From Branchiostoma lanceolatum (lineage: Eukaryota > Chordata > Leptocardii > Amphioxiformes > Branchiostomatidae): a DNA stretch of 64,000 nt. The stretch lies in assembly GCF_035083965.1 (NCBI RefSeq), contig NC_089732.1, positions 10,431,424 through 10,495,423 of the forward strand, read 5' to 3'. The position numbers were made by a program, and so were the translations under genes. The notes under the pieces were generated by a model. That model searched no databases, had not been told where the DNA came from, and was given only the letters and a program-made list of their open reading frames with translations. Below are positions 23,090 through 47,405 of this stretch, in pieces (position 1 is the stretch's first letter; each line of letters opens with the position of its first letter).

Positions 23090-26000
23090 TCAAAAGCTGA
23101 CTTCAACTTCATGTGCCTCATAGATCAGGAGTTCTCTACTTGCTGCACTTGCCTCAATTCCCAGCTCTTCTCTACTTGCTGCACTTGCTTCAACTCCCAA
23201 CTGTTGGGAAACATGTTTCTTTTTGAAGTGTCTTGCCAGGTGATTAGGACGACTGAACACCCGGCTGCACTCCTCACACCTGTAAGGTTTCTCACCTGTG
23301 TGAGTGTGCATGTGCAACTTCAGAGCACTCCACTGCCTGAATGGTCTTTGACACTCCTTACACGTGTAGGGTTTCTCCCCCGTGTGAATTAGCATGTGTC
23401 TCTTCAGCTGACACAGCTGTTTGAACTGCCTGCCGCAATTCCCACACCTGTGGGGTTTCTCTTCTGTGTGGGTCCACATGTGACTCTTCAGATCACCCTG
23501 CCGTATGAACTGCTTGCTGCACTTGTCACACATGTAGGGCTTTTCACCCGTATGAATCTTTAAGTGATTTTTTAGATAGCGTCGAGTATAAAACCGCATA
23601 TCGCACGTCTCACACTTGTAAGATTTCTCCCTGGGACCGTGAGTCTGCAGGTGACACTTGAGAGAACCCAATGAACGTAATTGCATGCCACACTTCTCAC
23701 ATACATGCATGCAAGCTGTAGTCTCACTGTGAGTTTGCTTGTGTCTGTTCAGATTACCCTTCCTATTGAACTGCTTGCCGCACTCCTCACATCTGTACAT
23801 GTAGAGCTTTTCCCTCGTGTGAGTGTACATATGTTGCCTCAAAAGAAGTGGCGAACTGAACTGCCGGCTGCACACCGTACATTTGTAGGGATTCTCCCCT
23901 GTGTGAGTGCTCATGTGCTTTCTAAGCATGTGTTGCTTCAGATTATCTGGCCTTCTGAACTGCCTTCTGCACTCCTTACACGAGTAGGGCTTCTCTCCGG
24001 AGTGAGTCTTCACATGTTGATTTAGATGCTTCCTCTCAACGAACTCTTTGCTGCACTCCTCACATCTGTGAAGTTTTTTCCCTATGTGAGTGTACATATG
24101 TTTCTCCAGCTCATGAGGCTTACTGAACTGACTGCTACATTCCTCACACTTGTAAGGTTTGCTCCTTGTGTGAATCTCCATGTGTCTCATCAGATTACGC
24201 TTCGAAGGGAACTCACTGCTGCACTCCTTACACCTAAAGGGTTTCTCCCCTGTGTGAGTGTGCATGTGTTCCTTCAGGGAACGAGAACCACTGAGACACT
24301 TGCTGCATTCCTCACACCAGTAGGGATTCTTCCCAGTGTCTTTCCAGTGCTCATCAGATGGTGCTGTAGCAGCCTGGTTGTCTGGTATAGACAGTGATAC
24401 TTGGTCCTGTGCTGCTTCTTCATCTTCTTGTGAGATGTCCTCATCCCCGCAACCGTCACTGTCACCTCCCATCCCTTCTTCCATCATGTCACCTGGTTCA
24501 TTTTTCCCGTCCATAATTTCCTGCTCCTTTCCTTCACTCTGTTCCATCCTCACAGTGGGAGGGGGGCATGTGGTGACGGTCAACAGAGGAACCTCCGTCG
24601 CAAGCACTTGAGAGCCTTGCACCGAATTCAAGATGGTAGAAGGACGAACAGCTACAGATCTGACTTCACTCTCAGACTGTCCCCTTTCTGCGGAGGTACG
24701 AGCTCTATTCTGGTCAGCAGAAGGCTTTGCAGGCGTATTTGTTGCGTGTTGTGGTGCAGGAAAGTCTGCTGTTGTACTTGCGCTTGTTTCCATCATTTTT
24801 GTTGACTCAGAAATGCTGCTAATCTCCCCTGTGCAAGTCGGTGTGTGTGTCATAAGATGACTACGCAAACTGAACTGCCTGCTGCACTTCTCACACCTGT
24901 AGGGTTTCTCCTCCGTGTGAGTGCGCATGTGTTGCTTCAGATTTCTCAGCTCAATGAATCGCTTGCTGCACTCCTCACACATGTAGGGTTTCTCACCTGT
25001 ATGAGTACGCATGTGCTGCTTCAGATTATCTGACCTTCTGAACTGCCTGCTGCACTCCTTACACGAGTAGGGCTTCTCTCCGGAGTGAGTCAGCATGTGT
25101 TCCTTTAGATGCTTCCTCTCAATGAACTCTTTGCTGCACTCCTCACATCTGTGGAGTTTTTTCCCTGTGTGAGTGTACAGGTGTTTCTTCAGCTCATGTG
25201 GCTTACTGAACTGACTGCTACATTTCATACACTTGTAAGGTTTGCTCCTTGTGTGAATCTCCATGTGTCTCATCAGATTACGCTTCGAAGGGAACTCACT
25301 GCTGCACTCCTCACACCTGAAGGGTTTCTCCCTTGTGTGAGTGTACATGTGTTCCTTCAGGGCACGAGAATCCCTGAGACACTTGCTGCATTCCTCACAC
25401 CTGTAGGGATTCTTCCCAATGTCTTTCCTGTGCTCATCAGATGGTGCTGTAGCAGCCTGGTTGTCTGGTATAGACAGTGATACTTGGTCCTGTGCTGCTT
25501 CTTCATCTTCTTGTGAGATGTCCTCATCCCCGCAACCGTCACTGTCACCTCCCATCCCTTCTTCTATCATGTCACCTGGTTCATTTTTCCCGTCCATAAT
25601 TTCCTGCTCCTTTCCTCCACTCTGTTCCATCCTCTCAGTGGGAGGGGGGCATGTGGTGACGGTCACCAGAGGAACCTCCGTTGCAAGCACTTGCGAGCCT
25701 TGCACTGAATTCAAGATGGTGGAAGGACTAACAGCTACAGATCTGACTTCACTCTCAGACTGTCCTCTTTCTGCGGAGGTACGAGCTCTATTCTGGTCAG
25801 CAGAAGGCTTTGCAGGCGTATATTTTGTTGCATGTTGCGGTGCAGGAAAGTCTGCTGTTGTACTTGTGCTTGTCTCCATCATTTTTGTTGACTCAGAAAT
25901 GCTGCTTATCTCCCCTGTGCAAGTCTGTGTGTGTGTCTTTAGATGACTACGAGTAGGCACACTGAACTGCCTGCTGCTCTTCTCATACCTGTAGCTATAG

Positions 26001-27465
26001 GGTTTCTCCTCCGCGTGAGTGCGCATGTGTTGCTTCAGATTTCCAGGATGACTGAATCGCTTGCTGCACTCCTCACACATGTAGGGTTTCTCACCTGTAT
26101 GAGTACGCATGTGTCTCTTCAGATTATCTGGCCTTCTGAACTGCTTACTGCACTCCTTACACGAGTAGGGCTTCTCTCCTGAGTGACTCAGCATGTGTTC
26201 CTTTAGATGCTTCCTCTCAATGAACTCTTTGCTGCACTCCTCACATCTGTGGAGATTTTCCTCTGTGTGAGTGTACAGGTGTTTCTTCAGCTCATGTGGC
26301 TTACTGAACTGACTGCTACATTTCTCACATTTGTAAGGCTTGCTCCTTGTATGAATCTCCATGTGTCTCCTCAGATTACGCTTCGAATGGAACTGCTTGC
26401 TGCACTCCTCACACCTGAAGGGTTTCTCCCCTGTGTGAGTGTGCATGTGTTGCTTTAGATTTCCCAGCACACTGAATCGCTTGCTGCACTCCCCACACAT
26501 GTAGGGTTTCTCACCTGTGTGAGTGTGCATGTGTTCCTTCAGGGCACGAGAATCGCTGAGACACTTGCTGCATTCCTCACACCTGTAGGGATTTTTCCCA
26601 GTGTGTTTGCTGTGCTCATCAGATGGTGCTGTAGCAGCCTGGTTGTCTTCCTTCTGAATTGCTTGTGATGAGGATTCCTTACGAAAAAAAAAGAATAAAA
26701 TACAAACATAAAGCCTAAAGCATACAACCAGGTATCAAATACCATCCTAAATGTAATAAATATATCTCAAATCCTGGGCATGCATTTTTAACAGTATCTA
26801 ATTGACTAAAATCAGTTGCTGACTATTTTTTTCTGAATACCATCATTACAATTTAGATATTCAATCAAGACTGTTATGTTTAAGTACAAATCATTCACCT
26901 CATTGGTTGGTATAGACCGTGATACTGGGTCCTGTGGTGCTTCCTCATCATCTTGTGAGTTATCTTCATCACCACAGTCATCACTGTCTCCTCCATCTTC
27001 TATGTCGGTGTCTTCCCTAGTTGTCTGCATATCTTCTGTGGCTTGAGGTTGGGGGATGGCATTTTGTGGCTTTGCAGACTCCTCTGCACATTTGTTATGT
27101 ATTTCTTGGCCATGCTTTTGCAGGACAGTGTCAAGAAGCTCTTCTGACAGGATAACACCCTCTGCATGGGTTTCTCCACTCTCTTGCTGTGGTAGGGTGC
27201 CATGTGGGTCTTCTGACGCAACATGTGCATCGAGTCGTTGTCTGTCGTCAGCCTCGCTGTACTCTAAGGTCATCAGCTCTTGTAGAAGGGCGACCAGGTT
27301 GCGTTTGTCTACGCCCTGTTTGCCTACCTCAATTTTACGCCTGCGGAGCTCCAACACGACCTCCTCCATAAAGAGCCTGGGCAGCACAGCCAGGGACACC
27401 TCCTTACACAGGCCAGTCAGACCTTTGGTAACCAGGTCACTCAGACTCAGAGAGGAGGAAGCCAT
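23090..27465 (-). CDS. giant C2H2 zinc-finger protein, two coding exons, 1384 residues
   Basis: Exon 1 is 27465-26899 (189 codons) and exon 2 is 26677-23090. The intron starts GTGAAT and ends in AG after a T-rich tract, and the phase is kept. The start MASSSLSLSDLV is chosen because upstream in-frame sequence shows no conservation cue. Residues 1-100 form a Leu-rich helical region (ELRRRKIEVGKQGV, LVALLQELMTLEY) that I do not match to SCAN, BTB or KRAB. An acidic tract follows (DSDDCGDEDNSQDDEE). From about residue 220 there are 28 C2H2 units in three blocks (about 220-441, 611-803, 971-1347), separated by two near-identical linkers of about 170 residues. TGEKP-type linkers join most fingers. 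Finger 8 is broken. The role is presumably nuclear DNA binding; the target is unknown. Confidence 0.9.
24330..26680 (-). repeat. internal module duplication in the zinc-finger gene (period 1083 bp)
   Basis: The block covering the end of the linker and the first fingers recurs with an offset of 1083 bp (for example 24274-24465 versus 25357-25548) and again about 1182 bp further upstream. The extra 99 bp correspond to one additional finger (84 bp) plus a 15 bp insertion in finger 8. The long linker is also near-identical in its two copies. This points to tandem duplication of a linker-plus-fingers module. Confidence 0.85.
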
Positions 27466-28850
27466 GGTCGGGACCAGGATGAGTGCAATTGAACCACACT
27501 TCTGATTGGAGCACTTTGACTTCTCTGGAACACAAACCACACAGTATCCATAAGCTCGCTCACACTTCTGAGTAGAAGGAATTGTGTATGCGTAAAATGT
27601 CAAAGGTGAAGACCCATAAGACATGAACAAAACATGTTCGGGACATAGTGTTGTGCAAATTGAGACAATGGTCCAGAGAAAGAACTGTTTACAAGTCAGG
27701 GGCCTTCAACTTTAACATATTTCCCACAATTCCTGTCACCGCTAGCGCTCATGTGTACCTAGAAGTGTGAACGAGCTTATCCAGGAGACTAAAGGTTTTT
27801 GTAGCATTTAACAATAAATGTTAAACATGTTGTTGACAAAGCAGCAATACACAACATATGATATTATAACCAGCAGGGCTCTGAGCTTCTCTCAATCGTT
27901 ACATTTTTATACTCCACTTTTGCCAGGTATTTGCGAAAACTTGACGTTCAGGCACTGTTGCTGCCCACATACGCAACATTATCACTTGAAGCATTCAAAC
28001 AAAAAATAGAGTGACAGGTTGTCCTCAAGTCAAACTCTCAAAGAGTTTCCATGGCTATTTAGTAATCCCCCCCCCCCGCCGCCGCCTTTTTGTTTTAGAC
28101 AAATAGTTTCATACAACATCAAGCAACGTTATGCTGCAGTTCTTTTCTCTCATGAAATAGAACTCTAATTAGGCACTACTTGAAGCATGAAATCATTCAA
28201 ACACATTATTTGAAACACCAATTTCATGGTTGCAGAGAAAAAGAACACATGATCATGTTCATTTTTTTCGTGACAGAATCTGAGGTTCAGTCAGAGAAAA
28301 TTATTTCTTTGATCGCTGATAGACGCCGATATTTCAAATTGTAGCCAGGTGAACGTACCTGCCAGTTATCTTGGATACCACCGTGTCTTGAGTGGGGAAT
28401 GGTGACCTGCAGAGCTCTTCATAGATTCAGATATTCTACTAAATCGACTCCTTGACTGTTGATTTGAATAAGTTATGAGCTGATCGAACGTTCTTCAGGT
28501 CACTAGGCCGTTCCAAAAAAAGATTTATAGCGGGGGGGAGGGGGTGATAACAACCTAAATTTAAATACCTCTCAAGTCCTACTTCCTAGCACTCTAACCC
28601 CCAGAGCCCTACAATTCTGACTATTTCAACCCTCTATCTCCTCGATTCCTAAGGATTTAAAATTCCCTACGCCCTAGTAGAGTCTATTACTATGTCATCG
28701 AACCCTCCTAAATATTTGGAACAGTCCATACCGTGTAAAATTGCCCGTAGAATTGTGGGTAATAAACATGGCTGCCCCCTGTGTTTGTTTTCCGTCTTTT
28801 CTGGTACATTTCTAGATATTTCGCTGGTTTCCGTGATACCTACAGGGAAG
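27466..28850. promoter_or_regulatory. head-to-head spacer between the zinc-finger gene and WDR83
   Basis: The start codons of the minus-strand zinc-finger gene and plus-strand WDR83 face away from each other across about 1.4 kb, so both promoters must lie here unless upstream noncoding exons exist. A C-run followed by CCGCCGCCGCC lies near 28066-28085, and a G-run near 28531-28545. No TATA element is obvious. Confidence 0.45.
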
Positions 28851-31800
28851 ATGGGAACCAAACTCCCAACCAAGGTTGCAAGAACTCTTGAGTGCAAGCA
28901 GGGAGCTGTAAGAGCCGTCAGGTTCAACGGTATGTAGCAGAATTTCGATGTCGGGAATATCCCCCTCCCCCTTGATTTGTTTACATGCATCGCGATTTAA
29001 AAAAAAAACACATATCGCATGATTTATATAAGTTATTATAACGTTATATATATATATATATATTACTTTGTTGGACTTGATTTTCAGACACTGAAGTCTG
29101 AATAATAGGAAAATTTGATATTTCAATATCATTCATATGCACTACACTACTAGTAGTCACCAGGCAGCATAAAAAAAATGAATTTATACATGTATGTGGC
29201 TCAGGTGGTTATATGGAGGAAATATTTTTAAAAATTGAACGTTGATGTTGTTATTGACTCGAGCATTTATACTGCACAGTTACCCAGTATGCATTTGAGA
29301 CTTATGCTGTCAAGATGTCAAGAAATAGTACTGTGATATTGGTAGTGTTAACAAGCAGGTTATATATTCTTGATTTTAACAATTTGACACATACATGTAT
29401 ATGTAACATGGTTACATCCTGGAACATATATATAATATATGGAGTGAACCAGAGCTAGAAATTGTATGGATACCAGGCTATTCTACAGGGAGGTGATCAA
29501 AGGCATGAATGAAGTTAGAATATGATCCATATCGTCTAATGTAAAACAGTAACCTTCACCCCTTTCCCCAGATGACGGGAACTACTGTATGACATGTGGC
29601 AGTGACAAGTCCATCAAACTGTGGAACCCACACAAGGGAACCCACATCATGACGTACTCAGGACACGGCTACGAAGTTCTTGACGTCGCTGCGTAAGTCT
29701 CTCAAGACTCAAGACTTTTGTTTAACTCTTAAGTGTTATGGTGCAGTCTAAATAGCCGATTTAATATTACCTGCTACATAAACATCAGAGCCAATTAGAT
29801 TCATCATCATCATACTCCGGTGAGGTATACTACTTCACTAGATAAAGTTTTTCCAGTAGTTCTTGTCCTTCAATTAGATAAACCTTTCCAAAACATGGAC
29901 CATGCTAAGCTGTACAAAATGGAATTTCATCTTACATTGGCTTGTGATGCTGTAACACTTGCAACATCCACTTTTCTTTAGACGACATCACAAAATTGTA
30001 CATGGCTTTCTTTTCTATGGGGGGTAGGTAGTCACAGAGTCTCAGTTTTGTTTGATATTACTGTAATGCACATGTTTTAATTGAAGTATAATTCAAAAGC
30101 TTATCTTTTCACTTACAATTGCAGGTTGTTTTGCTTAATGAAGTATTGATAATTGTTTTCTTTCCATGGCCAGGTCATGTGACAACAGCCAACTAACATC
30201 TACTGGGGCAGACAAGATGGTAATATTATGGGATGTCTCCACAGGAAAGATGGTGCGAAGGTTCAGAGGTCATGTTGGGGTGAGTGTCTTGGACTTTAGT
30301 TTAAAGAGTATTAACTCTCTGTTGGATATTTTTGTACATCTACATGTATATTAGATCAACTTTAGATATCATAATTTTCAACAAGTATTTGTAACCTATT
30401 GTGTTCCCCACTTATTTGTCGTCTTTGTACATTTCAGCGTGTAAACTGTGTGAAATTCAATGAAGAGTCGACTGTCATTGCATCAGGTAAGTCAGCACTC
30501 TCATGACTGGGATGGATGCCTACATTCTAAAATCTGATTGAAACCTTCTTATTGAAATACACATACGGTATGGTACCCTTTAGCCCATTTCCAAGGATGA
30601 ACTTCCACTAGTTTCAGGTCTTATCAAGCAACAGACAATTCAATTCATATACAGGCACAGACCAGAGGTAAGCATTGTTAAACTACTTCATAAAAATGAT
30701 GAGTTCACAGCTTACAAATCAATAAAATAAGGTACAAAATACATGATTACCAAATGAATTTACATCTCTAATATATAGAAAGTATATTAAAAGCAGCAGA
30801 ATGGATTAAGATCTAGACATCCAACTTTCATAAAGTCAGTGAAGCTTTGAATTTAAGTACACATAGTAACTATTATGTGGCTACAATCATTGTGATAACA
30901 TGTACAGTTCGTACTAGTACCCACTGCTGTTCTTTGCACATCTTATAGTATAAGTTATACATCTTCCATGCAAATATCCAGTGGAGCTAAAACGGCTAGA
31001 TTAAAGATAAGAATAAAAGCTACCCCTTGTACTACAAATTCAAAGAAGCGTTGCATCAGTGATACCCAGGCATTGTGAAATATTTGATACTTCGAGTTGA
31101 ACTACAACTGTTACAGTACAAGATTTCAGGAATGACGTCACGCTGTTTCCCCATCCAGGATCCATCGACAACACAGTTCGACTCTGGGACTGTCGAGCCA
31201 AGAAATATGACCCCATCCAGATTCTGGATGAAGCGAAGGACGGAATTTTCAGCATAAAATTATCGGACCATGAAATCCTCACAGGGTTGGTTCACTTCTA
31301 TATTTAAGAAACTAGATGATGTTCTTATTATTATGGGGTAGGTATGTCACTAGACTCTGGAGAGTGTAATACCGGTACATGAAATATTTGTCTCGTTTTG
31401 TGTTAAACTTTTGGGTTTTTGCTGTGACCCCTTACTGAGAAACTATCACACCTTAAGCATATGCTCTGTCTTCCCGTACATTGCTACCACTGTTTCGTAA
31501 GACATAGTTAAAGCTGCCTTTCCCTTATACTGTGAAACATAGCCTCCATAAACTTAAATGAAGTTACAATGTATGGCAACACTGAACATATCTTGTGCAC
31601 TTCAGGTCTGTGGATGGCAGAGTCAGAAGATACGACTTGCGTGTGGGAGAACTCCTTGTAGATTACGTAGGAAGTAGGTGTATTCTTCATTTCCTTATCC
31701 CATAAATATTCTATTAGGCTCATGAAGATAATGTCATATGCAAGTCAATTTTCTCCATGTTGTGGACTTTATGTCAACCATGATTGAATTCAATGTCTAA

Positions 31801-33277
31801 AATGCAACTTTGAACAGATTTTCAACTATGTCTGCAGTAGAGTAGTCGCAAATTTTTGTGTTGGAACAAAGTTTTAACTCTGTACCAAGTACCAAATACC
31901 AAGGGTCTGTAATTATGATGCTTGAATCTGATTATCCCTTTCATGTTGCATGACTTTCAATGTTTTTCTGCAGGCCCTGTGACGTGTGTTTGCTTCACCA
32001 AAGATGGCCAGTGTGTCCTGAGCTCAGCACTAGACAGTACCCTACGACTGTTGGACAAGGACACAGGGGAGCTGCTCGGAGAGTAAGCCAGCTTGGAAAC
32101 ATTATACCATATTCTAAACTGTTTTGTCTAACCTTCTGCTCAATGGAGGCAGTCATCTTGGTCACCTGACCCAGTCCAACCAATCACATCTTTCATGTTC
32201 GTAACCTGAACCAGTCCAGTCAATAAGACTGTTTTGCCAAGAATGCCTTCATATGGTTTTGATACTGTTCAGTTTTAATTTTAGTGTTGTCTGTTTCTAA
32301 CAGAGATTTTCTTGGAGATGTATTGGAAAAAAGTAGTATCAATGGAAGCCTGCCTTATCGTTTGGACATAACTTTCTAAACTACATGAATCTGAAGACCA
32401 AACACTATTTTTTGATCATCCCCAGCAAATCTCATACATGGACATATCAAGTTCTGTCACTGCCACTCCACTTTGAAAAGGATATCCTCAAATGTACCAG
32501 ACAATCTCAGGTCAAGAGCTAGTAATCATCAAGTGATGAAGTCTTGCACTTATAAAAGATTTCTGCATGTTTTTTCAGGTACACAGGTCACAAAAGCACA
32601 GAGTTTAAGATAGACTGCTGCCTCACCAACAGTGATGCACATGTAGTCAGCGGCTCAGAGGATGGCAAGATTTACTTCTGGGACCTGGTAGATGTAAGTA
32701 ATAGGTTGTCTTTAATCATCATTCCAGGTGGCTTGCCCAAAATAAGGCCAGACTCTCTCTCCATGATTTCCTGGTACCGAGGGTGATGCGGGATACACTG
32801 TGTTGTATTTTCTTTATGTCATACCCAACCAAAAAAAAAATGCAAAATGCACCAGATGTTGAGAAAATTTGGTGTCTTGGAGCTAAAAACAACAGCAATT
32901 CCAACTTCTGAATCCGGTATTCAAATTTTCGACAGTGCATGCAAAGTGCATTCAAATGATTCTATGGAAGATTGTGTACTTTACAAGTGATTTGTGTGTG
33001 ATGATCCAAAATATCACCAGGTCCAGAACACCCATATTGAATGTTATTATGGCCAAGGTTTGACAAAGATACTTATATATTAAGCTGAAAATTGTTGTGT
33101 TTTATTATTAAAAAAATTCTTTTCCTTTTTTTTCAGAGCAAAATTGTCCACACACTTTCCAAGGAAGGAAAAGGTGTTGTCCATTCCCTCAGCTACCATC
33201 CCTCCCTCCCCTGCATGCTTTCAGCTGCTGAGAACTTGGTCAAGGTCTGGAGGGAGGAAGACTACCAAGAGGACTAG
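28851..33277 (+). CDS. WDR83: WDR83 (MORG1), seven-WD40 scaffold protein, nine exons
   Basis: Coding exons: 28851-28929, 29572-29692, 30174-30279, 30438-30486, 31159-31285, 31606-31673, 31974-32082, 32579-32693, 33137-33277. All are GT-AG with matching phases, giving 304 residues; vertebrate WDR83 is about 315. Signature stretches include QGAVRAVRFN, CGSDKSIKLWNP, YSGHGYEVLDV, VILWDVSTGKMVRRFRGH, GSIDNTVRLWDCR, DHEILTGSVDGRVRRYDLR, LLDKDTGELLGEY, SEDGKIYFWDL and VKVWREEDY, covering seven blades. The family scaffolds ERK-module components, associates with spliceosomes and modulates PHD3/HIF signalling. The start at 28851 matches the family's short N-terminus; an in-frame ATG at 28692 would add 53 residues with no WD40 character. 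A poly(A) signal AATAAA lies at 33653-33658. Confidence 0.95.
29045..29064. repeat. TA dinucleotide microsatellite in WDR83 intron 1
   Basis: An uninterrupted TA run is seen directly. Confidence 0.75.
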
Positions 33278-33874
33278 CCCACGGGCAGCTTTACCTCAGT
33301 AGCAACATTGGAGTTTTCAGAACCGTTGGATTAGATCATCCAACCCATGCATATACGTTGTTTCCTGACTATCATAATGTGTTTATTAACTGGTTGGAAA
33401 AATTGATTTACTAGTAGCACTAGTAACTTACATGGACTACATGTATGTCTGTTACCAAGAGTACCAGTGAAGCATTTGTCACTATTTGACATATCTATTT
33501 TTCCAAGTGAAAGGGAAGGCAATGTGTAGAAATGTTCTCATCTAACATCCTGGAAACTATGAATGTATAATTAATGAATGAATGAAAATCATTATTATTT
33601 TCGAATGAAAAAGTTGACCTGTGTCATGGTGTACATTTGGACTGTGTATTTGAATAAAGCCATTCTACATCAGTTCTTTTGTTGTGTTCAATGCTTGAAT
33701 ATATATTCTATGAAGCCTCAAATGATATGTTTGCCTTAGGATAAAACACTCAAACATTCAAGGAACAGAAATGCCTGTAGATTCAGTTCAGTTCTGCCAA
33801 AGGCCATATTTGGGAAGTTAAAATTGAAGGATGTCGACATTTGTGACCAAAAAAGTACTTGATCTATCAGCTTA

Positions 33875-33879
33875 TACAG
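33875..33879. repeat. left 5 bp target duplication (TACAG)
   Basis: TACAG sits immediately outside the left inverted repeat, and the same 5 bp in the same orientation follows the right one at 37673-37677. A 5 bp match has about a 1 in 1000 chance, but its exact abutment to both repeat ends supports a genuine insertion footprint. Confidence 0.65.
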
Positions 33880-34262
33880 CACCCCCATGAAACTCCTTAT
33901 GGGCCGTACCCGGTCTTATGGGCCGTACCCGGTAAAATTATGGGCCGTACCCGGACTTATGGGCCGTACCCGGTAAAATTATGGGCCGTACCCGGACTTA
34001 TGGGCCGTACCCTGTACCTATGGGCCGTACCCAATGGCCGACATCGCCCGGCCACAGGGCGAAGTGGCGTGAAAGTCGCGTCTAGATACCCTGTACCGCA
34101 ACGATACACAATCACACATAGCCTATGCTCTGGCAAACATTCCTGGCCACCTCTCTGCCGAGTGGCGTTGTACAAATCGCCCCCAATATCGAGAACACTC
34201 ACGCAAGCTGTGGCGAGATGCCGGCTGCAGTGCTCGCGTGGGGTCGAGAAACCCGGAAGTGA
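33880..34262 (+). repeat. left terminal inverted repeat, 383 bp
   Basis: Seven tandem copies of TATGGGCCGTACCC, spaced by short GG(A/T)C, GGTAAAAT or TGTACC segments, fill the first 145 bp or so. A unique GC-rich 230 bp follows, up to CCCGGAAGTGA. Similarity to the right repeat stops abruptly after this. The long open frame across it is a by-product, not a gene. Confidence 0.9.
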
Positions 34263-34683
34263 GCTTCGCATCGATCATCATCATCAGCTGGGTTGTGTGG
34301 GAGGCGTCGCGAACCGGACAAAACTCTCGAGCTCCTTGCTATCGGTACGCATTTCACAATTTCATCCATGGTATATAACTTTTATTACCGCCCTATTAGG
34401 TCACTCCTCCAACAGAGAGTCACTGTAACGTAAGATTTTGTTCTTGTTATTATGATTACAGGGGATTTGATTTGTTTGTAAAGCGTGGAAGGGGTCGGGA
34501 GGTGTAGCATGACAGGGAGCCCGAGCATGCTGCACTGCACAAGTGACCATATACCGACGAGACAGTGGTGTAATAGAGACAACAACAACAGCATATTGCT
34601 AAAACTCTAGGTGAAGATGAACTGTTTCTAGTTTAATACTCTCTAACATGATCTTTGACTGTCTTATTCAATCTTCATTCCAG

Positions 34684-35586
34684 AGTATTGCACAATGACA
34701 AGAAAAAAGCCTATCAAGCTCCATCTTGGAAAGAAGGACAAAAGGACATATGCTGCCATCCCCTTTCCCAAAAGGAAAGTGATACATTGTCTGACTCCCC
34801 GGCCAAGTTGGGCACTCAGACGACCAGCCCCCGTTGAACAAGGTACTCTCAGTTGGCAAAAGAAGATTTCAGTACTTATGGGTACAGGTGACTCACAAAC
34901 AAACCTGGGTAAACCTATTTGGAGTAAGACATTAAAATCCTTCTCACATAACCAATGCAATATTCATACAGAAATTTGAAAGTATAGTGTTCAGCTGGCA
35001 GAATTTGATAGCAGCATTATTGTATGACTACAATCACAGATCTTATAAGGTCTTGGAGTCTTCATGTGTGCTCATGTGGTAGTTTACTTCATGTCAATTT
35101 TTGTTCTTGTAGATTGTGATAATTTCTAATCTACAAAAGAGTCATTCATTCAGTAGGCAAGCAGAAATCAATAACAACTTGAATTTCAAAGGGACATTGA
35201 TCCATCACACTATTTGCCAATAAAGTCACAGTTTATTACTCTATATCTGTAAACCTTATGCTTAAAAGTTATAACACATTAAGTACCGTAGTAACAGTAA
35301 TTTCGTTTTTTTCATTTCAGGGCCTGTGGATTCCCCAACGACAAGTAGCAAGCCTGTCTACCCCTGTCAAAGTACAGATGTCATCTTTACAGAAACAGAC
35401 CACCCTGAACAGTGGGAACCACCAACTAGGCTGGCTCTTGTGAAGGCAAAAAACCATCCCTTTGATCTGACATCAAGGGCACGCCCTAAATTTGGTGCTC
35501 CTTTGAAGGGGCAGACTGGTGTAAGGCAGTACCATAGAACAGATCTTTCAAAGATCCTGCCTCATGAGCGAATTGGTCTTCTATAA
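34684..35586 (+). CDS. unrecognised 137-residue basic protein, two coding exons, inside the TIR element
   Basis: Coding exons are 34695-34842 and 35321-35586 (414 nt with stop), joined by a GT-AG intron with a strong polypyrimidine acceptor; the phase is kept. An acceptor ending TTCCAG at 34683 precedes the start, so a noncoding first exon probably lies between the left inverted repeat and there (a GTACGC donor follows 34343). The protein starts MTRKKPIKLHLGKKDKRTY, is Lys/Arg-rich at the N-terminus, has PRPSWALRRPAPVE in the middle and ends SKILPHERIGLL. I see no signal peptide, membrane segment or known catalytic motif. Clean splicing over two frames argues for a real gene; function unknown. 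Confidence 0.6.
35046..35087 (-). pseudogene. zinc-finger fragment in the intron of the 137-residue gene
   Basis: GGTCTTGGAGTCTTCATGTG and TGCTCATGTG here match the stretch at about 35902-35937 that encodes HLSTHEDPKT in the convergent zinc-finger gene. It is a short displaced copy with no open finger around it. Confidence 0.5.
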
Positions 35587-35818
35587 GTAAACTTCACTGC
35601 TGTATTCAAAATTTCAATGTAATTTTTTTCTCCACTTTGCCAAACATTATCTTATTTCAAAGTGGAATGATTGTTGCATTGTCAAAATCATTCATTGATT
35701 TGAGTACTAGTTTGAAAAAGTAATTGCATATTGTTCAGATCTTACAGGACTTACATGGTTAATGATTAAAGATATGGAACATAATTAGGGGCTGCATGTA
35801 ACGTATGACTTTGTATGA

Positions 35819-36869
35819 TCAATCAGTAGAATTTTTGTGCACTGTTGCCATGTGGCGCATGAGCTGCCTCGCTCCCTGGTAGCTTTTACTGCACATGTTA
35901 CAGGTCTTGGGGTCTTCATGTGTGCTCAAGTGTCTTTTCAAACTTTGTTTCTGTTTGAAAGAAGCAGTGCACACCGTGCACTTGTGATCCTTGGCCTGCT
36001 GATGGATCTTCAGGTGGTCACATGTCTTCTGTGGGGCTTGGGCCTTCCGGCGATGGTGGTACAACTTTACTTTGTTTGCAAATGTCAGTTTGCAGGTTGT
36101 GCAGGTGTGCTCTTTGGACTCATGTATGAAACAGTGTTGCCTGAAACCAGAATATGACTTAAAACTCTTGCCACACTCCTTGCAGACTAGTACTTTATTA
36201 TTGTGCTGAATGTCTACATGTTTTTTTAGTGCAAACTTGTCATGAAAGGATGTAGAGCATTTCTCACAAGTAAACGTTGCTCTGTGTCTGAGGTTGTGTC
36301 TTCTGTAGTGGGAAGCAGGTATATTTTCCCCACAGATGTCACACAAGACGATGTTTGATTCTAAAAGGGGAGAAGTGAGATATCTGTTATTTTAGTATGC
36401 ACACATAGTTTGTTTATGTATACAAAATATGTGACAGTGTGAAGGGCTCAAAAGAAAAAAAAGTACCAACAAACAACTTAGTAACTGTAAATTTGGAACA
36501 AAATTTCACTCAGTCTGACACCTGTTATTCACTCATATTGCAAATCCTCCCAGAGTTATCTATGACGCTGGTACCCAAGCTATCAATCACTGGTTTTAAG
36601 AGAAATAGAGTCATAAAATTGTGGTACACAGGGATGTAACAATGCGCATGCAATGCACTTTTTCAATATTGAATGATACAATGAGACAAGTATATGAAAG
36701 TAGATATTCTCCAATGCTCTATACATACATGCTATACTGTATATTCACAGAAATAATTGAATAAAGAAAGGTCACCTGCAGTTGTGGCACCTGTTTCCTG
36801 TCCTACAATTTGTGGTGGCTCGGCATCATCTGTGACAACTGCGTCTGGGGGTTCTTCACCTGAATTCAT
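35819..36869 (-). CDS. C2H2 zinc-finger protein, 211 residues, two coding exons, inside the TIR element
   Basis: Exon 1 is 36869-36776 and exon 2 is 36360-35819. The donor GTGACC and the acceptor after CCCCTTTTAG keep phase, giving 212 codons with the stop. Residues 1-32 are acidic (MNSGEEPPDAVVTDDAEPP). From about residue 37 there are about six C2H2 units: CDICGENIPASHYRRHNLRH, FTCEKCSTSFHDKFALKKH, LVCKECGKSFKSYSGFRQH, HTCTTCKLTFANKVKLYHH (long or disrupted His spacing), HKCTVCTASFKQKQSLKRH and KTCNMCSKSYQGARQLMRH. An alternative in-frame ATG at 36914 adds 15 residues. The linkers are not TGEKP, unlike the large gene at 23-27 kb, so the two are not recent duplicates. It may bind DNA, possibly the repeat array in the flanking inverted repeats; that is speculation. 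Confidence 0.75.
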
Positions 36870-37289
36870 CTTTGGCAGTGGTAGTAGTGGGATGGTCAAA
36901 TTATTTGTATACAAAATGCCATGTTTATTGTTGCAATCAAATTTAATGACAAATTCTAGTACCTATAATTCCAGTTTACAACACCAAAAAAAGGTTGCTT
37001 CTGAGGTTCGGTCCACTACACTCAGATCTAGTTTCCCCTCCCACCCTATATGATAGTATATTCAGAGAACCCTGTGGACAGAGATTATATCTCTATTGTA
37101 ATCCATCTGATTCCTGTTGTTTCCACATTGGCTAGAATTCTAGAAACAGGTTATTCCATTGTGCGTTACCAAATCGTATATTTCACGGAATGATAGTCTA
37201 AATTCACTAGACATTTCACCAACCTTCCGTTGCACCTGCCGGCTGGACTGAACGCGGGTAAAAATGAAATTTCCCGCCAAAGAACAGCA

Positions 37290-37672
37290 TCACTTCCGGG
37301 TTTCTCGACCCCACGCGAGCACTGCAGCCGGCATCTCGCCACAGCTTGCGTGAGTGTTCTCGATATTGGGGGCGATTTGTACAACGCCACTCGGCAGAGA
37401 GGTGGCCAGGAATGTTTGCCAGAGCATAGGCTATGTGTGATTGTGTATCGTTGCGGTACAGGGTATCTAGACGCGACTTTCACGCCACTTCGCCCTGTGG
37501 CCGGGCGATGTCGGCCATTGGGTACGGCCCATAGGTACAGGGTACGGCCCATAAGTCCGGGTACGGCCCATAATTTTACCGGGTACGGCCCATAAGTCCG
37601 GGTACGGCCCATAATTTTACCGGGTACGGCCCATAAGACCGGGTACGGCCCATAAGGAGTTTCATGGGGGTG
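37290..37672 (-). repeat. right terminal inverted repeat, 383 bp
   Basis: This is the reverse complement of 33880-34262. Every stretch I compared, including the seven-copy TATGGGCCGTACCC array, is identical. Identity ends at TCACTTCCGGG, beyond which the two insides differ. Confidence 0.9.
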
Positions 37673-37677
37673 TACAG
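37673..37677. repeat. right 5 bp target duplication (TACAG)
   Basis: TACAG directly follows the right inverted repeat and equals the left flank at 33875-33879. Confidence 0.65.
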
Positions 37678-37769
37678 GCAGTTCAGGGAATGTTTGCCTC
37701 GGAATGAGCAAATGTGCAACTAAAATGGTTCATTTCTAATAGATTCTTGAAATTCAATTAGTCGGGGTG

Positions 37770-38874
37770 AGCCTCAAGGTCAAGAACAAGAGCAGGAAAG
37801 AACTGGAGTAAAAACCCCATAAGAGCCCATCTCATTTCCCAAGTCGCGGAATGGCCAAATCTGGGAATGAGCGACGCTTCGTTAGCGAGATACGGGCCTT
37901 TTCGGAACGGGGGCTCCAAAATGGGGGTGTGATAGGGGATGAATTTCCGCTTTTTCAATTTTAGAAAAAGGACATTTTTCGACTTCATTGTTGTCAGAGT
38001 GTACTTCTTATGAACTCTATTCTATTCATACGTAATGCCACCGTGAAAATTGCCTTTATTCTCAAGTTATATGGCAAAACATGATCTGGACTGTTGCAGT
38101 TCGTGGTCAGGGCTTTGTAAAAGTGGACATTTAGGTGTGTTTACCATACCATACCATTACCATATGAATCATAACCAGCAGATGGTGGGAGGGAATCTCG
38201 TAGTTTTTGCTTGAAGATTTACCATATGCAGACAAAGTCCTTGGCTACTATTTGATAAACAAACCACAAAAAGTCTCAAAGAGTCATAAAACTTTAATCA
38301 TATTTCCTAGTACTCAATGTACGTACATGTGTATTGATCATTGCAACTAATATTGAACCGCCCTTTGATGTACCAGCTTCATAGGAAAACTACCATACGT
38401 ATAGCTATGACATGAATATCAAAGATTCTGTCTTCAAGCATTACACAGCTACGATTTTCCCTTCAACCATCTGCTTAGTTATGATTCATATGGTAATGTA
38501 AAATACACCGAAATGTTCACTTTTGCAAAGCTCTGGCCACGAACTGTAACCGCCCAGATGACGTTTTGACGTATAACTTGAGAATAAAGCAATTTTTGCG
38601 CGGAGGCATTGCATATGAATAGAATAGGGTTCATAAGAACTACATTGTGACAACAATGAAGCCGAAAAATGTCTTAAGTTTCCTTTTTCTGAAATTCAAA
38701 AAGCGTAAATTTCATCCCCTATCACACCCCCATTTTGGAGCCCCCGTTCCGAAAAGGCCCGTATCTCGCTAACGAAGCGTCGCTCATTCCCAGATTTGGT
38801 CATTCTGCGACTTGGGAAACGAGATGGGGTTTTAGGTCCCTTTCTTTCCTGCTCTTGTTCTTGACCTTGAGGCT
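37770..38874. mobile_element. 1.1 kb imperfect palindrome (fold-back element)
   Basis: The arms begin AGCCTCAAGGTCAAGAACAA on the left and end in its complement on the right. Pairing continues inward with roughly 80-90% identity past the TTCATCCCCTATCACACCCC block to CATATGAATCATAAC(C/T)A near the centre at about 38322. There is no coding capacity. It lies just 92 bp beyond the TIR element. A target duplication could not be defined. Confidence 0.8.
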
Positions 38875-40567: not shown

Positions 40568-40696
40568 TGATGGATCTAAGTGCCGATAGGATATATCTGA
40601 ATGTCTTATATGATTCTGAGCGTACACTGAGCTAATTAATGGCCCGTTTACACTTAGTACTTGTGTATATATTAAAGTCAGTATGTACGGGGTACC

Positions 40697-41756
40697 CGAC
40701 CTGTAGCGTATGTAATCCGACCTGTAGCGTATGTACCCCGACCTGTAGCGTATGTACCCGACATGTTAGCGTATATACCCCGACCTGTAGCGTATGTACC
40801 CCGACCAGTAGCGTATGTACTCCGACCTGTAGCGTATGTACCCCGACTTGTAGCGTATGTACCGCGACCTGTAGCGTATGTACCCCAACCTGTAGCGTAT
40901 GTACCCTGACCTGTAGCGTATGTACCCCGATCGGTAGCGTATCTACCCCAACTTGTAGCGTATGTACCCCGACCTGTAGCGTATGTACCCCGACCTGTAG
41001 CGTATGTACCCCGACCAGTAGCGTATGTACTCCGACCTGTAGCGTATGTACCCCGACTTGTAGCGTATGTACCGCGACCTGTAGCGTATGTACCGCGACC
41101 TGTAGCGTATGTACCCCAACTTGTAGCGTATGTACCCCGACCTGTAGCGTATGTATCCCGACTTGTAGCGTATGTATCCCGACCTGTAGCGTATGTACCC
41201 CGACCTGTAGCGTATGTACCCCGACCTGTAGCGTATGTACCCCGATCGGTAGCGTATGTACCCCGACCAGTAGCGTATGTACCCCGACCTGTAGCGTATG
41301 TACCCCGACTTGTAGCGTATGTACCCCGACCTGTAGCGTACGTACCCCGACCTGTAGCGTATGTACCCCGACTTGTAGCGTATGTACCCCGACCTGTAGC
41401 GTATGTACCCCGACTTGTAGCGTATGTACCCCGACTTGTAGCGTATGTACCCCGACTTGTAGCGTATGTACCCCGACTTGTAGCGTATGTACCCCAACCT
41501 GTAGCGTATGTACCCCGACCTGTATGTAGCGTATGTAGCCAGACCTGTAGCATATGTACCCCAAACTGTAGCGCATGTACCCCGACCAGTAGCGTATGTA
41601 CCCCAACTTGTAGCGTATGTACTCCGACCGGTAGCGTATGTACCCCGACCTGAGCGTATGTACCCCGACCTGTAGCGTATGTACTCCGACCTGTAGCGTA
41701 TGTACCCCAACTTGTAGCGTATGTACCCCGACCTGTAGCGTATGTACCCTAACCTT
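40697..41756. repeat. 21 bp minisatellite, about 50 copies
   Basis: The consensus unit is TGTAGCGTATGTACCCCGACC with recurrent variants (CTTG, CCAG, TCGG, ACTCC, ACCGC). Because 21 is divisible by three and the unit lacks stops in several frames, both strands show long false frames (up to 380 codons, heptapeptides such as VHTLQVG). Variant order repeats at a larger scale: the string starting GACCAGTAGCGT at 40803 recurs at about 41012. No start or splice context supports coding. Confidence 0.95.
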
Positions 41757-42640
41757 GGCGACCAGGACATTCATACAATCATTCGCACATTCAGTTTAAT
41801 GTATTCAACTATAGAGAGCAAACGTAAACTGTCTGGGTTCAAATCGTGTCTTTAGTAGCAGTTGTCGACGAAGCATAAGATCGTCAAGTGTACAGCTATG
41901 CCACTCTGGCATTTTGAAACATTATCTCGAAATTTACATGAAAACAATATTTCACAATGTTTGTACTCTATACCTCTAGAACTAACAATGTGTAATACTA
42001 CAAACATCTATACACCACAAGTAGCATAAATACAATAGTTCACAATATTTCTATTAGTACCCTAGCCCTAAGACTACAAAACTGTAAAGTTAACCTAACC
42101 TGTCATAAATACTAGCTAAAATACAACAACTACAGTCTCCATGCATAGAAGCCCCATTTATGAAGAATTAAGAAAACTATTTTGGGTCAGCTCAAAAGGC
42201 TTAGGCTTAGGAGTATGTGCTGAGGGTTAGTCAAAAGAGTAAATGTTAGTGTTAGTGTGAGCCTTTACCCAAGCCTTTTAAGCATGGCTAGCTTCAAAGG
42301 AGCTGAAATAATTTTCATGGGAGTTCTGTACACAAGACTTTAAGCCATAGACTAGTCTAAGCTACTTCAACCTAAGCTAACAAAGTCCAGGCTACCATAG
42401 TCTTAACTACTAGAGTCTAAGCTATCTCTGTCTATTGACTTCTATGTAATGCCACAAAGAAGAATCACTGCCGGAAGTTCTTCACAGCGCCGTTGCCTCT
42501 GTGCCAAGTCCCGAAGATGTCTTCTCCTTCACACGCCGGATCACAAGTCCCGAAGTTGTCTGGTCACTTCCAGGTCGCCGAGGTCTGCATGTGTCTGGTT
42601 AAGGATCATTTTGGTGCAAAATATCCATTTAAAGGGTTCG
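41757..42640. other. spacer between arrays, no gene recognised
   Basis: This stretch is rich in CTA, TAG and AAGC(C/T)TA runs, for example many TAAGCTA-like and CCTAAGC words near 42330-42430, which suggests old tandem decay. No open frame of interest. Confidence 0.45.
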
Positions 42641-44460
42641 TCTTATATCTGGAAGAAAAGCAACAGGTACACACAGACACACCTGTGGAGAAAAAGACAC
42701 AAGCACACATATCTTCATTCTGAAAGAAAAGCAACAGAAACACACAGACAGACCTGTGGAGAAAAAGACACAAGCACACATATCTTCAATCTGAAAGAAA
42801 AGCAGCACACAGACAAACCTGTGGAGAAAAGTCACAAGCACACATGTCTTCTATCTGAAAGAAAAAGCAACAGAAACACACAGACAAACCTGTGGAGAAA
42901 AAGACACAAGCACACATATCTTCAATCTGGAAGAAAAAGCAACAGAAACACACAGACAGACAAACCTGTGTAGAAAAAGACACAAGCACACATGTTTTCT
43001 TCTGAAAGAAAAGCAACAAAACTCACAGACAGACCTGTGGAGAAAAAGACACAAGCACACATATCTTCACTCTGGAAGAAAAGCAACAGAAACACACACA
43101 CAGACAGACAAACCTGTGGAGGAAAAGACACAAGCACACATATTTTCACTCTGAAATAAAAGCAACAGAAACACACAGACAGACAAACCTGTGGAGAAAA
43201 AGACACAAGCACACATATCTTCAATCTGGAAGAAAAAGCAACAGAAACACACAGACAAACCTGTGGAGAAAAAGACAAGCACACATATCTTCAATCTGGA
43301 ATGAAAGGAACAGAAACACACACACAGACAGACAAACCTATGGAGAAAAAGACACAAGCACACATATCTTCAATCTGAAAGAAAGGCAACAGAAACACAG
43401 ACAAATCTGTAAAAAAAGTCACAAGCACACATATCTTCAATCTGAAAGAACGGCAACAGAAACACAGACTAATCTGTAAAAAAAAGTCACAAGCACACAT
43501 ATCTTCAATCTGAAAGAACGGCAACAGAAACACAGACAGACAGACCTGTGGAGAAAAAGACACAAGCACACATATCTTCAATCTGGAAGGAAAGGAACAG
43601 AAACACACACACAGACAGACAAACCTATGGAGAAAAAAGACAAGCACACATATCTTCAATCTGGAAAAAAAGCAACAGAAACACACACACAGACCTGGGG
43701 AGAAAAAAACACCAGCACACATATCTTCAATCTGAAACAAAGGCAACAGAAACAGACAGACAAACCTGTGGAGAAAAAAAGACACAAGCACACATATCTT
43801 CAATCTGGAAGAAAAATAACAGAAGCACACGCACACACAGACAAACCTATGGAGAAAAAGACACAAGCACACATTTCTTCAATCTGGAAGGAAAGGAACA
43901 GAAACACACACACAGACAGACAAACCTGTGGAGAAAAAGACCAGGCACACATATTTTCAATCTGAAAGAACGGCAACAGAAACACACAGACAAACCTGTA
44001 GAGAAAAATACACAAGCACACATATCTTCAATCTGGAAGGAAATGACAGAAGCACACAGACAGTCAAACCTGTGGAGAAAAAGACACAAGCACACATTTT
44101 TTTCCTTCTGGAAGAAAAGCAACAGAAACACACACACACTCAGACATGTTGAGAAAAAGACACAATCACACATATCTTCACTCTGGAAGAAAAGCAACAA
44201 CACACAGACAGACAAACCTGTGGAGAAAAAGACACAACACACATGTCTTCACTCTGGAAGAAAAGCAACAACACACAGACAGACAAACCTGTGGAGAAAA
44301 AGACACAAGCACACATATCTTCACTCTGGAAGAAAAGCCACAACACACAGACAGACGAACCTGTGGAGAAAAAGACACAAGAACGCATATCTTCACTCTG
44401 GAAGGAAAGCAACAGAAACACTCACACAGACAGAAGGACTTGTTGAGAAAAGACAACCAC
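42640..44460. repeat. tandem array of 64-76 bp units, block 1 (about 25 copies)
   Basis: The core is ACCTGTGGAGAAAAAGACAC, then AAGCACACATATCTTC, then (A/C)(A/T)CTGGAAGAAAAGCAACAG and a variable (ACACACAGACAGACAA) stretch. Starts of AAGCACACA at about 42700, 42771, 42835, 42907 and 42983 show unit lengths varying by expansion of the CA/GACA part. Open frames such as 43548-44471 are repeat by-products. Confidence 0.9.
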
Positions 44461-44764
44461 AGATATCCTGATTTTTGTATTATTCATTAATTATTATTCA
44501 TTTATTATTATCTATCGATTATTTTTTATTGATTATTATCTATCGATTATTTTTTATTGATTATCTATCAATTATTTTTGTTGATTATTATCTATCGATT
44601 ATTATTGATTGATTATTGTTTATTGATATCTATATTAATATTAATATGAATATTTAATGATATTTATTATTGATATTAATTATTTACTATTCACCATTCA
44701 CTATTTTTTATTTATTTATTTATTTACTTACTTATCTACTCATTTATCTTTTTTTTTTTTTCAT
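44461..44764. repeat. AT-rich low-complexity block between two array blocks
   Basis: Runs of ATTATT, TATCGATTATT and ATTTATTT dominate. It splits two blocks of the same array, so it is an insertion into, or local replacement of, array DNA. Confidence 0.8.
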
Positions 44765-45962
44765 TCTGGAAGGAAAGGCAACAAAAACACACAGACCTGT
44801 AGATAACAGAGAAGCACACATATCTTCGAATTCCTTTCTGAAGAAAAGCAACAGAAACACACAGACCTAGTTGAGATAAGACAAGCAGTAATATCTTCCT
44901 TCTGGGAGAAAAGTGAACAGATTCACACACACAGACAAACCTGTAGAGAAAAAAGACACAAGCACACATAGCTTTATTCTGGAAGAAAAGCCCAGACAGA
45001 CAGACAAACCTGTGGAGAAACAGACAAGAACACATATCTTCATTCTGGAAGGAAAAGCAGCAGAAACACACAGACAAACCTGTGGAGAAATAGACAAGAA
45101 CACATATCTTCATTCTGGAAGGAAAAGCAACTGAAACACTCAGACAGACAAACCTGTGGAGAAATAGACACTAGAACACAATATCTTCATATCATTCTGG
45201 AAGGAAAAGCAACTGAAACACTCAGACAGACAAACCTGTGGAGAAATAGACACTAGAACACAATATCTTCATATCATTCTGGAAGGAAAAGCAACTGAAA
45301 CACTCAGACAGACAAACCTGTGGAGAAATAGACACTAGAACACAATATCTTCATATCATTCTGGAAGGAAAAGCAACTGAAACACTCAGACAGACAAACC
45401 GGTGGAGAAATAGACACCAGAACACAATATCTTCATATCATTTTGGAAGGAAAAGCAACTAAAACACACAGACAGACAAACCTGTGGAGAAATAGACAAG
45501 AACACATCTTCATTCTGGAAGGAAAAGCAACAGAAACACACACACAGACAGACAGACAGACCTGTGGAGAAATAGACACCAGAACACAATATCTTCATTC
45601 TGGAAGGAAAGGAAAAGAAACACACAGACAGACAAACCTGTGGAGAAACAGACAAGAACGCATATCTTAAATTTGGAAGGAAAAGAAACAGAAACACACA
45701 GAAAAACCTGTGGAGAACAGACAAGAACGCATATCTTAAATCTGGAAGGAAAAGAAACAGAAACACACAGACGAATCTGTGGAAAACAGACAAGAACACA
45801 TACCTTCAATCTGGAAGAAAAGCAACAGAAACACACAGACAGACAGACCTGTGGAGAAAACGACAAGAACACATATCTTCACTCTGGAAGAAAAGTAACA
45901 AACACACAGACAAACCTGTGGAGAGAAAGACAAGAACACAGATCTTTATTCTGGAAGAAACA
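44765..45962. repeat. tandem array of related units, block 2 (about 16 copies)
   Basis: The same core as block 1 occurs with variant units, including a homogeneous sub-array of about 91 bp units at about 45130-45440 in which GACACTAGAACACAATATC and TTCATATCATTCTGGAAGG recur. This shows local homogenisation separate from block 1. Confidence 0.88.
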
Positions 45963-47405
45963 TGGCTTGTATCTTAAGTCGGTATCTGCCTTCAAACACA
46001 GCTAACATCTTAAGTCGGTATCTGCCTGCAAACTAACATAGCTAACATCTTAAGACGGCACCTGCCTTCAAACAGACATAGCTAACATCTTAAGGCGGTA
46101 TCTGCCTTCAAACAGACATAGCTAATATCTTAAGACGGTACCTGCCTTCAAAGAGACATAGCTAATATCTTAAGACGGTACCTGCCTTCAAACAGACATA
46201 GCTAACATCTTAAGACGGTACCTGCCTTCAAAGAGACATAGCTAATATCTTAAGACGGTACCTGCCTTCAAACAAACATAGCTAACATCTTAAGAAGGTA
46301 CCTGCCTTCAAACAGACATAGCTAACATCTTCAGACGGTATCAAACAGACATAGCTAACATCTTAAGACGGTATCTGCCTTCAAACATAGCTGACATCTT
46401 AAGTCGGTATCTGCCTTTGCATGTAGCTAACATCTTAAGTCCGTAAGTCCGTATCTGCATTCAAACAAGCATAGCTTACATCTTAACAGACGGTATCAAA
46501 CAGACATAGCTAACATCTTAAGACGGTATCTGCCGTCAAACAGACATAGGTAACATCTTAAGACGGTATCTGCCTTCAAACAAACATAGCTAACATCTGA
46601 GACGGTATCAAACAGACATAGCTAACATCTTAAGACGGTACCTGCCTTCATACAAACATAGCTAACATCTTAAGAAGGTACTTGCCTTCAAACAGACATA
46701 GCTAACATCTTCAGACGGTATCAAACAGACATAGCTAACATCTTAAGACGGTATCTGCCTTCAAACATAACTGACATCTTAAGTCGGTATCTGCCTTTGC
46801 ATGTAGCTAACATCTTAAGTCCGTACCTGCAGTCAAACAAGCATAGCTTACATCTTAACGGACGGTATCAAACAGACATAGCTAACATCTAAAGACGGTA
46901 TCTGCCGTCAAACAGACATAGCTAACATCTTAAGGCGGTATCTGCCTTCAAACAGACATAGCTATCATCTGAGACGGTATCAAACAGACATAGCTAACAT
47001 CTTAAGACGGTATCTGCCTTTGGATGTAGCTAAGTCCGTATCTGTATTTAAACAAGCATAGCCGACATCTTAAGACGGGATCAACAGACACAGCTAACAT
47101 CTTAAGACGGTATCTGCCTTCAGACATAGCTAACATAAAGCCGATATCTGCCTTCATACAGACATAGCTTACATCTTAAGACGGTATCAAACAGACGAAG
47201 CTAACATCTTAAGTCACTATCTGTGTTCAGACGTAGCTAACATTTTGAGTCGGTATCTGCCTTTAAACAGCTATAGCTAACATCTTAAGCGGTAGCTTAG
47301 GGGTTAAGACGGTATCTGGCTTCAAACAGACGTAGCCAACATCTTAATACAGTATCTGCCATTTAAACAAGGAACAACACTTTAAGACGGTATCTGCCTT
47401 CACAT
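45963..47405. repeat. tandem array of about 39 bp units (about 35 copies)
   Basis: The unit is ACATAGCTAACATCTTAAGA followed by CGGTA(C/T)CTGCCTTCAAACAG. A shorter form lacking CTGCCTTC is interspersed. A compound segment of several hundred bp recurs (around 46320-46560 and 46690-46920, including TTTGCATGTAGCTAAC), indicating higher-order duplication. Confidence 0.92.

Follow-up and report, generated by a model that had tools for sequence, protein, structure and literature searches.

Pack-MULE and other Pack-TYPE elements of plants are described as non-autonomous units in which terminal inverted repeats (TIRs) surround captured genic DNA and which are moved in trans (PMC8903248, PMC6431247), and it is well documented that cut-and-paste transposons of plants carry genes. 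In maize, the two convergent genes of MuDR are reported to be transcribed from promoters in the TIRs, which also hold cell-cycle motifs (PMC3310237). The lancelet element ProtoRAG is described with CAC ends, a 5-bp target-site duplication (TSD), tail-to-tail genes, and TIRs that have promoter activity (PMC7481187). Here, we describe a 3793-bp unit from the lancelet Branchiostoma lanceolatum, located in a window of 64,000 nucleotides (contig NC_089732.1, positions 10,431,424 to 10,495,423, numbered below from the first base of the window). Like MuDR, it has long TIRs (383 bp) and two convergent genes; with ProtoRAG, it shares the 5-bp TSD, the CAC ends, and the tail-to-tail genes. The described Pack-TYPE elements are from plants and carry gene fragments, whereas this animal locus has two apparently complete intron-containing genes and a 5-bp TSD. 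We hold, with somewhat better than even confidence, that it is one recently inserted, non-autonomous, Pack-TYPE-like gene-carrying DNA transposon with MuDR-style arms.

Identical arms and a shared target-site duplication delimit one inserted unit

The left arm (33880 to 34262, plus strand) and the right arm (37290 to 37672, minus strand) are exact reverse complements by string equality (383/383 bases), as an initial annotation of this DNA had judged from their appearance. Nine inverted pairs with a length of 40 bp or more were found in the window, and the two arms, spaced 3027 bp apart, form the longest of them; blastn extends their pairing inward to 387 nt at 99.7% identity. Their GC content is 58%, and their ratio of observed to expected CpG (CpG o/e) is 1.0. 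The sequence TACAG, already recorded in the initial annotation, lies flush against the outer ends of both arms (33875 to 33879 and 37673 to 37677), and a flush 5-bp match has a probability of 0.00115 by chance given the base composition of the window. The locus thus has the terminal inverted repeats, directly flanked by a TSD, that define class II TIR transposons. No second copy of the element was found within the window by blastn.

When each arm was tested alone, neither was flanked by a flush duplication. The arm starts with CACCCCCATG but reads CCCGGAAGTGA at its inner end, which therefore does not represent another terminus. Since TACAG is shared by the two arms, no flush TSD belongs to a single arm, and the inner edge is no terminus, the arms delimit one inserted unit. 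Two solo insertions, which the initial annotation had named among the cases that would overturn its proposal, were looked for in this locus and were rejected for lack of a flush TSD on either arm.

A broader objection would be that no transposon is involved, and that the locus is a pair of host genes with promoters duplicated in inverted orientation, the outcome of two separate insertions, or an artifact of the assembly. Duplication can generate long inverted repeats, the interior resembles host gene bodies, and, if a slack of up to 3 bp is allowed at the arm edges, the right arm by itself is bordered by a 4-bp repeat, ACAG. However, about 0.2 such slack matches are expected per arm, whereas the 5-bp TSD sits flush at the outermost bases, with a chance of about 0.001, and has no flush counterpart on single arms; we consider an explanation of this kind very improbable.

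Two convergent spliced genes are predicted between the arms

The initial annotation had placed between the arms two spliced genes that run toward each other, and this layout was borne out by GT/AG models for both, on the strength of open frames and splice signals for gene 1 and of a Pfam match for gene 2. Gene 1, on the plus strand, is coding from an ATG at 34695 in exon 2 (34684 to 34842) and continues in exon 3 (35321 to 35586), which contains the stop codon. It likely has a non-coding leader exon ending around 34344 (predicted at 34263 to 34344), which holds no ATG and is followed by a donor GT at 34345. The predicted product is a basic protein of 137 amino acids (MTRKK...IGLL; pI 10.4) for which no relatives were found in Pfam, NCBIfam, or PDB sequences at E values up to 10; in viral contigs, five pattern matches were obtained and none was confirmed.

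Gene 2, on the minus strand, has three coding exons with GT/AG borders, namely, 37214 to 37170 (ATG at 37214; the first 15 residues), 36869 to 36776, and 36360 to 35819 with the stop codon, and its predicted product has 226 amino acids. Scanned without the first exon, the protein matched Pfam zf-C2H2 in five stretches with an E value of 5.9e-17. The two genes lie tail to tail with their stop codons 232 bp apart. Intron 2 of gene 1 contains a 31-bp relic of a C2H2 coding exon (35048 to 35078, minus strand) that is 94% identical to positions 35902 to 35932, in the final coding exon of gene 2, and shares the orientation of that exon; the alignment score was 52, compared to a maximum of 35 in 200 shuffles. 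The interior therefore has an earlier duplication history.

The window holds another, large C2H2 gene on the minus strand (23090 to 27705), with a 1214-residue stop-to-stop frame that contains repeated finger blocks. A 297-residue frame lies upstream of it and has no Pfam match at E values up to 0.01. The five best matches between the 1214-residue frame and the C2H2 protein of the element were 26 to 33% identical.

The arms carry seven subterminal repeats and candidate promoter motifs

Seven subterminal repeats resembling TTATGGGCCGTACCCGG occupy positions 33897 to 34032 of the left arm (plus strand), at spacings that alternate between 19 and 22 bp (41-bp period; the last spacing is 20). Within the window, their 14-mer core TATGGGCCGTACCC is confined to the arms, each of which has seven copies, and the arm outside this block is unique sequence. 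DNA transposons are described as commonly having short repeats in or close to their ends, which hold sites recognized by the transposase (PMC3310237). By analogy, the seven tandem repeats per arm are probably transposase recognition sites. The arm repeat had no match in viral contigs. In prokaryote genome contigs, the 17-mer gave six single matches in unrelated bacterial metagenome-assembled genomes, which we read as chance, given that about 30 were expected. The 11-mer core was also encountered in five papers, which to judge from their listed titles all concern microRNAs or circular RNAs, and we take this as coincidence.

The motif CCGGAAGT (34253 to 34260, plus strand), which we take to be ETS-like, sits at the inner boundary of the left arm and is mirrored in the right arm; the window holds one more copy, at 42471. 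The 12-mer TTTCCCGCCAAA / TTTGGCGGGAAA (37270 to 37281, minus strand), presumably E2F-like, lies 8 bp inside the right arm and occurs only there in the window. The putative MuDR-style promoters of the arms are proposed from these ETS- and E2F-like sites and from the CpG pattern described below.

No transposase is recognized in the frames searched

No transposase was matched in Pfam among the proteins of the two genes and nine further stop-free open reading frames (ORFs) within or overlapping the element, and the remark in the initial annotation that none is visible holds for these frames. Within them, the element corresponds to the Pack-TYPE definition, i.e., genic DNA between TIRs without a transposase. 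Sub-threshold matches to DUF7607 (E value of 0.085), RALF (0.11), and Bombesin (0.41 to 0.44) were discounted as chance matches. A further ten ORFs from the window matched no Pfam family at E values up to 0.01, and the window had no Rfam match at gathering scores. With the shared flush TSD, none on single arms, and no transposase in the searched frames, the non-autonomous TIR transposon carrying genes that the initial annotation proposed is the best-supported description of the locus.

The alternative offered in the same annotation, a new transposon class, gained no positive evidence. In such an autonomous class, the 137-residue and C2H2 proteins would themselves be the transposition machinery; in its favor, the arms enclose both genes and nothing else that was recognized as coding, and the seven repeats could serve as binding sites for the C2H2 protein. 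However, no catalytic domain was found in either protein in Pfam or NCBIfam, nor in the gene 1 protein by PDB sequence search. The structure predicted without alignment for the 87 residues of gene 1 exon 3 was uninformative (predicted local distance difference test score of 59.4; predicted template modeling score of 0.12), and 137 residues is small for a DDE enzyme. We therefore regard a new class as very unlikely.

A more specific form of the favored reading would make the unit a Pack element of the Mutator-like element (MULE) type, mobilized by a transposase of the MuDR superfamily. The traits reported for Mutator elements include long TIRs, promoters within them, two convergent genes, and gene cargo (PMC3310237, PMC3276141), and TSDs of the IS256/MuDR group are said to measure 4 to 10 bp (PMC10045372). 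In contrast to the 5-bp TSD and CACCCC ends observed here, maize Mu elements are described with 9-bp TSDs and GAGATA ends, and MuDR encodes the MURA transposase (PMC3276141), whereas no MULE transposase was matched by Pfam in the frames searched. A MULE origin is thus unlikely, although it retains a real share of our belief.

The parallel with ProtoRAG drawn in the initial annotation is one of architecture alone. The CAC start, the 5-bp TSD, and the convergent genes are indeed present; CACTATG at the ends, a TR5 match better than chance, and, among the proteins scanned, a match to RAG1 or RAG2 are not. If the unit were a derivative mobilized by a RAG-like (RAGL) or Transib enzyme, its RAG1L and RAG2L genes would have been swapped for the present cargo. 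CAC is described as the invariant start of RAGL ends, with TSDs of 5 bp, and non-autonomous RAGL elements are reported in several deuterostomes (PMC7204232). The convergent gene layout would also suit such an origin. However, a CAC start arises by chance in 1 of 64 cases, the protostome consensus is given with AAA at positions 8 to 10 (PMC7204232) where ATG stands here, and the first seven bases of the arm are CACCCCC and not the CACTATG of TR1, a departure from the canonical heptamer that the initial annotation had correctly pointed out. The best match to TR5 (GCCATCTTG) in the arm has 2 mismatches and was equaled in 65% of 1000 shuffles, i.e., it is no nearer than chance. The arms also differ from those of ProtoRAG in being 383 bp long, perfect, and partly made of tandem repeats. 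Pfam contains RAG models, and neither RAG1 nor RAG2 was matched by the products of the two genes or by the nine further ORFs, although non-autonomous derivatives would lack these genes too. Membership in ProtoRAG was rejected, as the ends and TR5 fail; mobilization by a RAGL enzyme is unsupported, and we rate it as quite unlikely.

Other described elements were more distant. Turmoil-1 of Caenorhabditis elegans, a DNA transposon from another animal, also has long TIRs and acquired protein-coding sequence, but it is described as a Harbinger with a transposase, in which the captured gene fragments lie within 760-bp TIRs and a splice site is mutated (PMC2572040); Harbingers usually have 3-bp TSDs, compared to 5 bp here. 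Ginger2/TDD elements, of which lancelet families exist, share a TSD of 4 to 5 bp and have TIRs of about 50 to 180 bp. They were discarded because their ends are given as TGTNR (PMC2836005), compared to CACCC here, and no integrase-type transposase was seen. IS481EU elements, with TSDs of about 4, 15, or 25 bp and TG..CA ends (PMC10045372), were likewise rejected.

The CpG profile suggests that the genes are older than the insertion

The interior of the element has a CpG o/e of 0.216, and 9 of 273 same-length windows outside were as low (median of 0.55); these comparison windows overlap one another, are not independent, and do not include any that start from about 30.8 to 37.9 kb. By zone, CpG o/e is 0.13 to 0.22 in the left flank up to the arm, rises to 1.0 in the arms, remains high in the first 150 bp inside them (1.19 at the left and 1.16 at the right), and falls to 0.15 to 0.31 in both genes deeper inside. 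For comparison, the values are 0.35 for the neighboring WDR83 gene (see below) and 0.34 for the C2H2 gene at 23.1 to 27.7 kb. The interior CpGs were probably lost through germline methylation.

CpG loss of this kind is slow, and the 383-bp arms show zero differences, an identity that reflects either youth or gene conversion; the genes would thus be older than the insertion. The simplest account is that, before this copy landed, the genes were already old and body methylated, with unmethylated starts beside the arms. Captured host genes are a plausible cargo. Given that the CpG-rich zone abuts both arms, the profile mildly favors a long-standing cargo of the arms over a fresh uptake of host genes. 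We also see a small chance that the element belongs to a lineage of animal transposons that has long carried two complete, germline-expressed spliced genes flanked by promoter-bearing arms, and that the C2H2 protein binds the repeats of its own arms, regulating or targeting an element that is moved by a borrowed transposase.

The element lies behind a WDR83 orthologue

To the left of the element, a gene of at least nine exons extends from about 28853 to 33680 on the plus strand. Its nine joined exon translations matched PDB entry 9s2f_WD ("WD repeat domain-containing protein 83") with an E value of 5.3e-123 and 413 bits, versus 208 bits for the next sequence, and we take this gene, a housekeeping gene, to be the WDR83 orthologue. 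Its AATAAA signal is at 33653, about 220 bp before the TSD. On the right side, 92 bp from TACAG, is a second inverted-repeat element of the foldback type (about 37770 to 38874), the arms of which measure about 450 bp and are 82 to 87% alike by piece; it is older than the 3793-bp element.

Further to the right, two long stretches (40632 to 41795 and 42407 to 46005) look like tandem repeats when their translations are inspected by eye; they are open in many frames and show opposite CpG extremes, with o/e values that reach 1.36 and fall to 0. Two other stretches, at 49585 to 50441 and 52341 to 53197, lie 2756 bp apart and are judged similar because their translations, compared unaligned, nearly coincide for the greater part.

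DISCUSSION

We propose that the ends of the unit are recognized by a transposase encoded elsewhere, likely through the seven TTATGGGCCGTACCCGG repeats of each arm. This enzyme would pair both arms in trans, cut at CAC, and insert the unit with a 5-bp stagger, which would produce the TACAG duplication. The arms would double as promoters, with the ETS-like site at their inner edges, and would drive the two convergent spliced genes. The interior CpGs would have been lost through long germline methylation prior to this insertion, such that a unit with old, body-methylated genes landed about 220 bp behind the WDR83 poly(A) signal.

Several points weigh against this proposal. First, mobility is deduced from a single site, and one locus cannot prove a family. 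Second, the nine ORFs compared to Pfam were taken from 58 of at least 40 amino acids at 33500 to 38000; the best weak match among the nine was Endonuclease_7 (E value of 0.063; 13.6 bits versus a cutoff of 23.6), which we read as chance. Third, transcription of both gene models is a prediction from sequence. The coding case for gene 1 is built on open frames and splice signals, and the Fickett score lends it weak support, as its value of 0.80 was reached by 82 of the 655 414-mers of the window. Gene 2 reached only 0.53 despite its decisive Pfam match, and the Fickett score is therefore a poor guide in either direction. By eye, fingers in the central part of the gene 2 product seem irregular, one finger lacks the last histidine, and another is truncated; this gene may be in decay. 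Fourth, the CpG profile is uneven: at 151 to 300 bp inside the arms, CpG o/e is 0.82 at the left versus 0.16 at the right, where the CpG-rich zone is shorter, and the right outer flank, in which another repeat begins 92 bp away, is not depleted (0.60 and 0.84). Finally, the identity of the arms could stem from gene conversion and not from youth, and the CpG depletion could result from methylation of a transposon family and not from an origin as host genes.

Helitrons are reported to pick up fragments of genes in animals as well (PMC6431247), and the 2008 paper on Turmoil-1 presents protein-coding transduplication in animals as unknown before its case (PMC2572040). In the open-license literature, no animal element in which TIRs enclose two complete, spliced cargo genes appeared in the titles or abstract openings of the matches listed. 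The WDR83 orthologue provides a useful anchor for synteny and empty-site comparison. The arms, built on seven copies of a 17-mer-like unit, constitute a precise probe for the partner transposase, and such a probe would help to tell whether RAG-like, Mutator-like, or other enzymes make the 5-bp TSD. If our proposal is true, the element would stand as a direct example of whole-gene transduplication in an animal, in which genes far older than the insertion travel with ready-made promoters.

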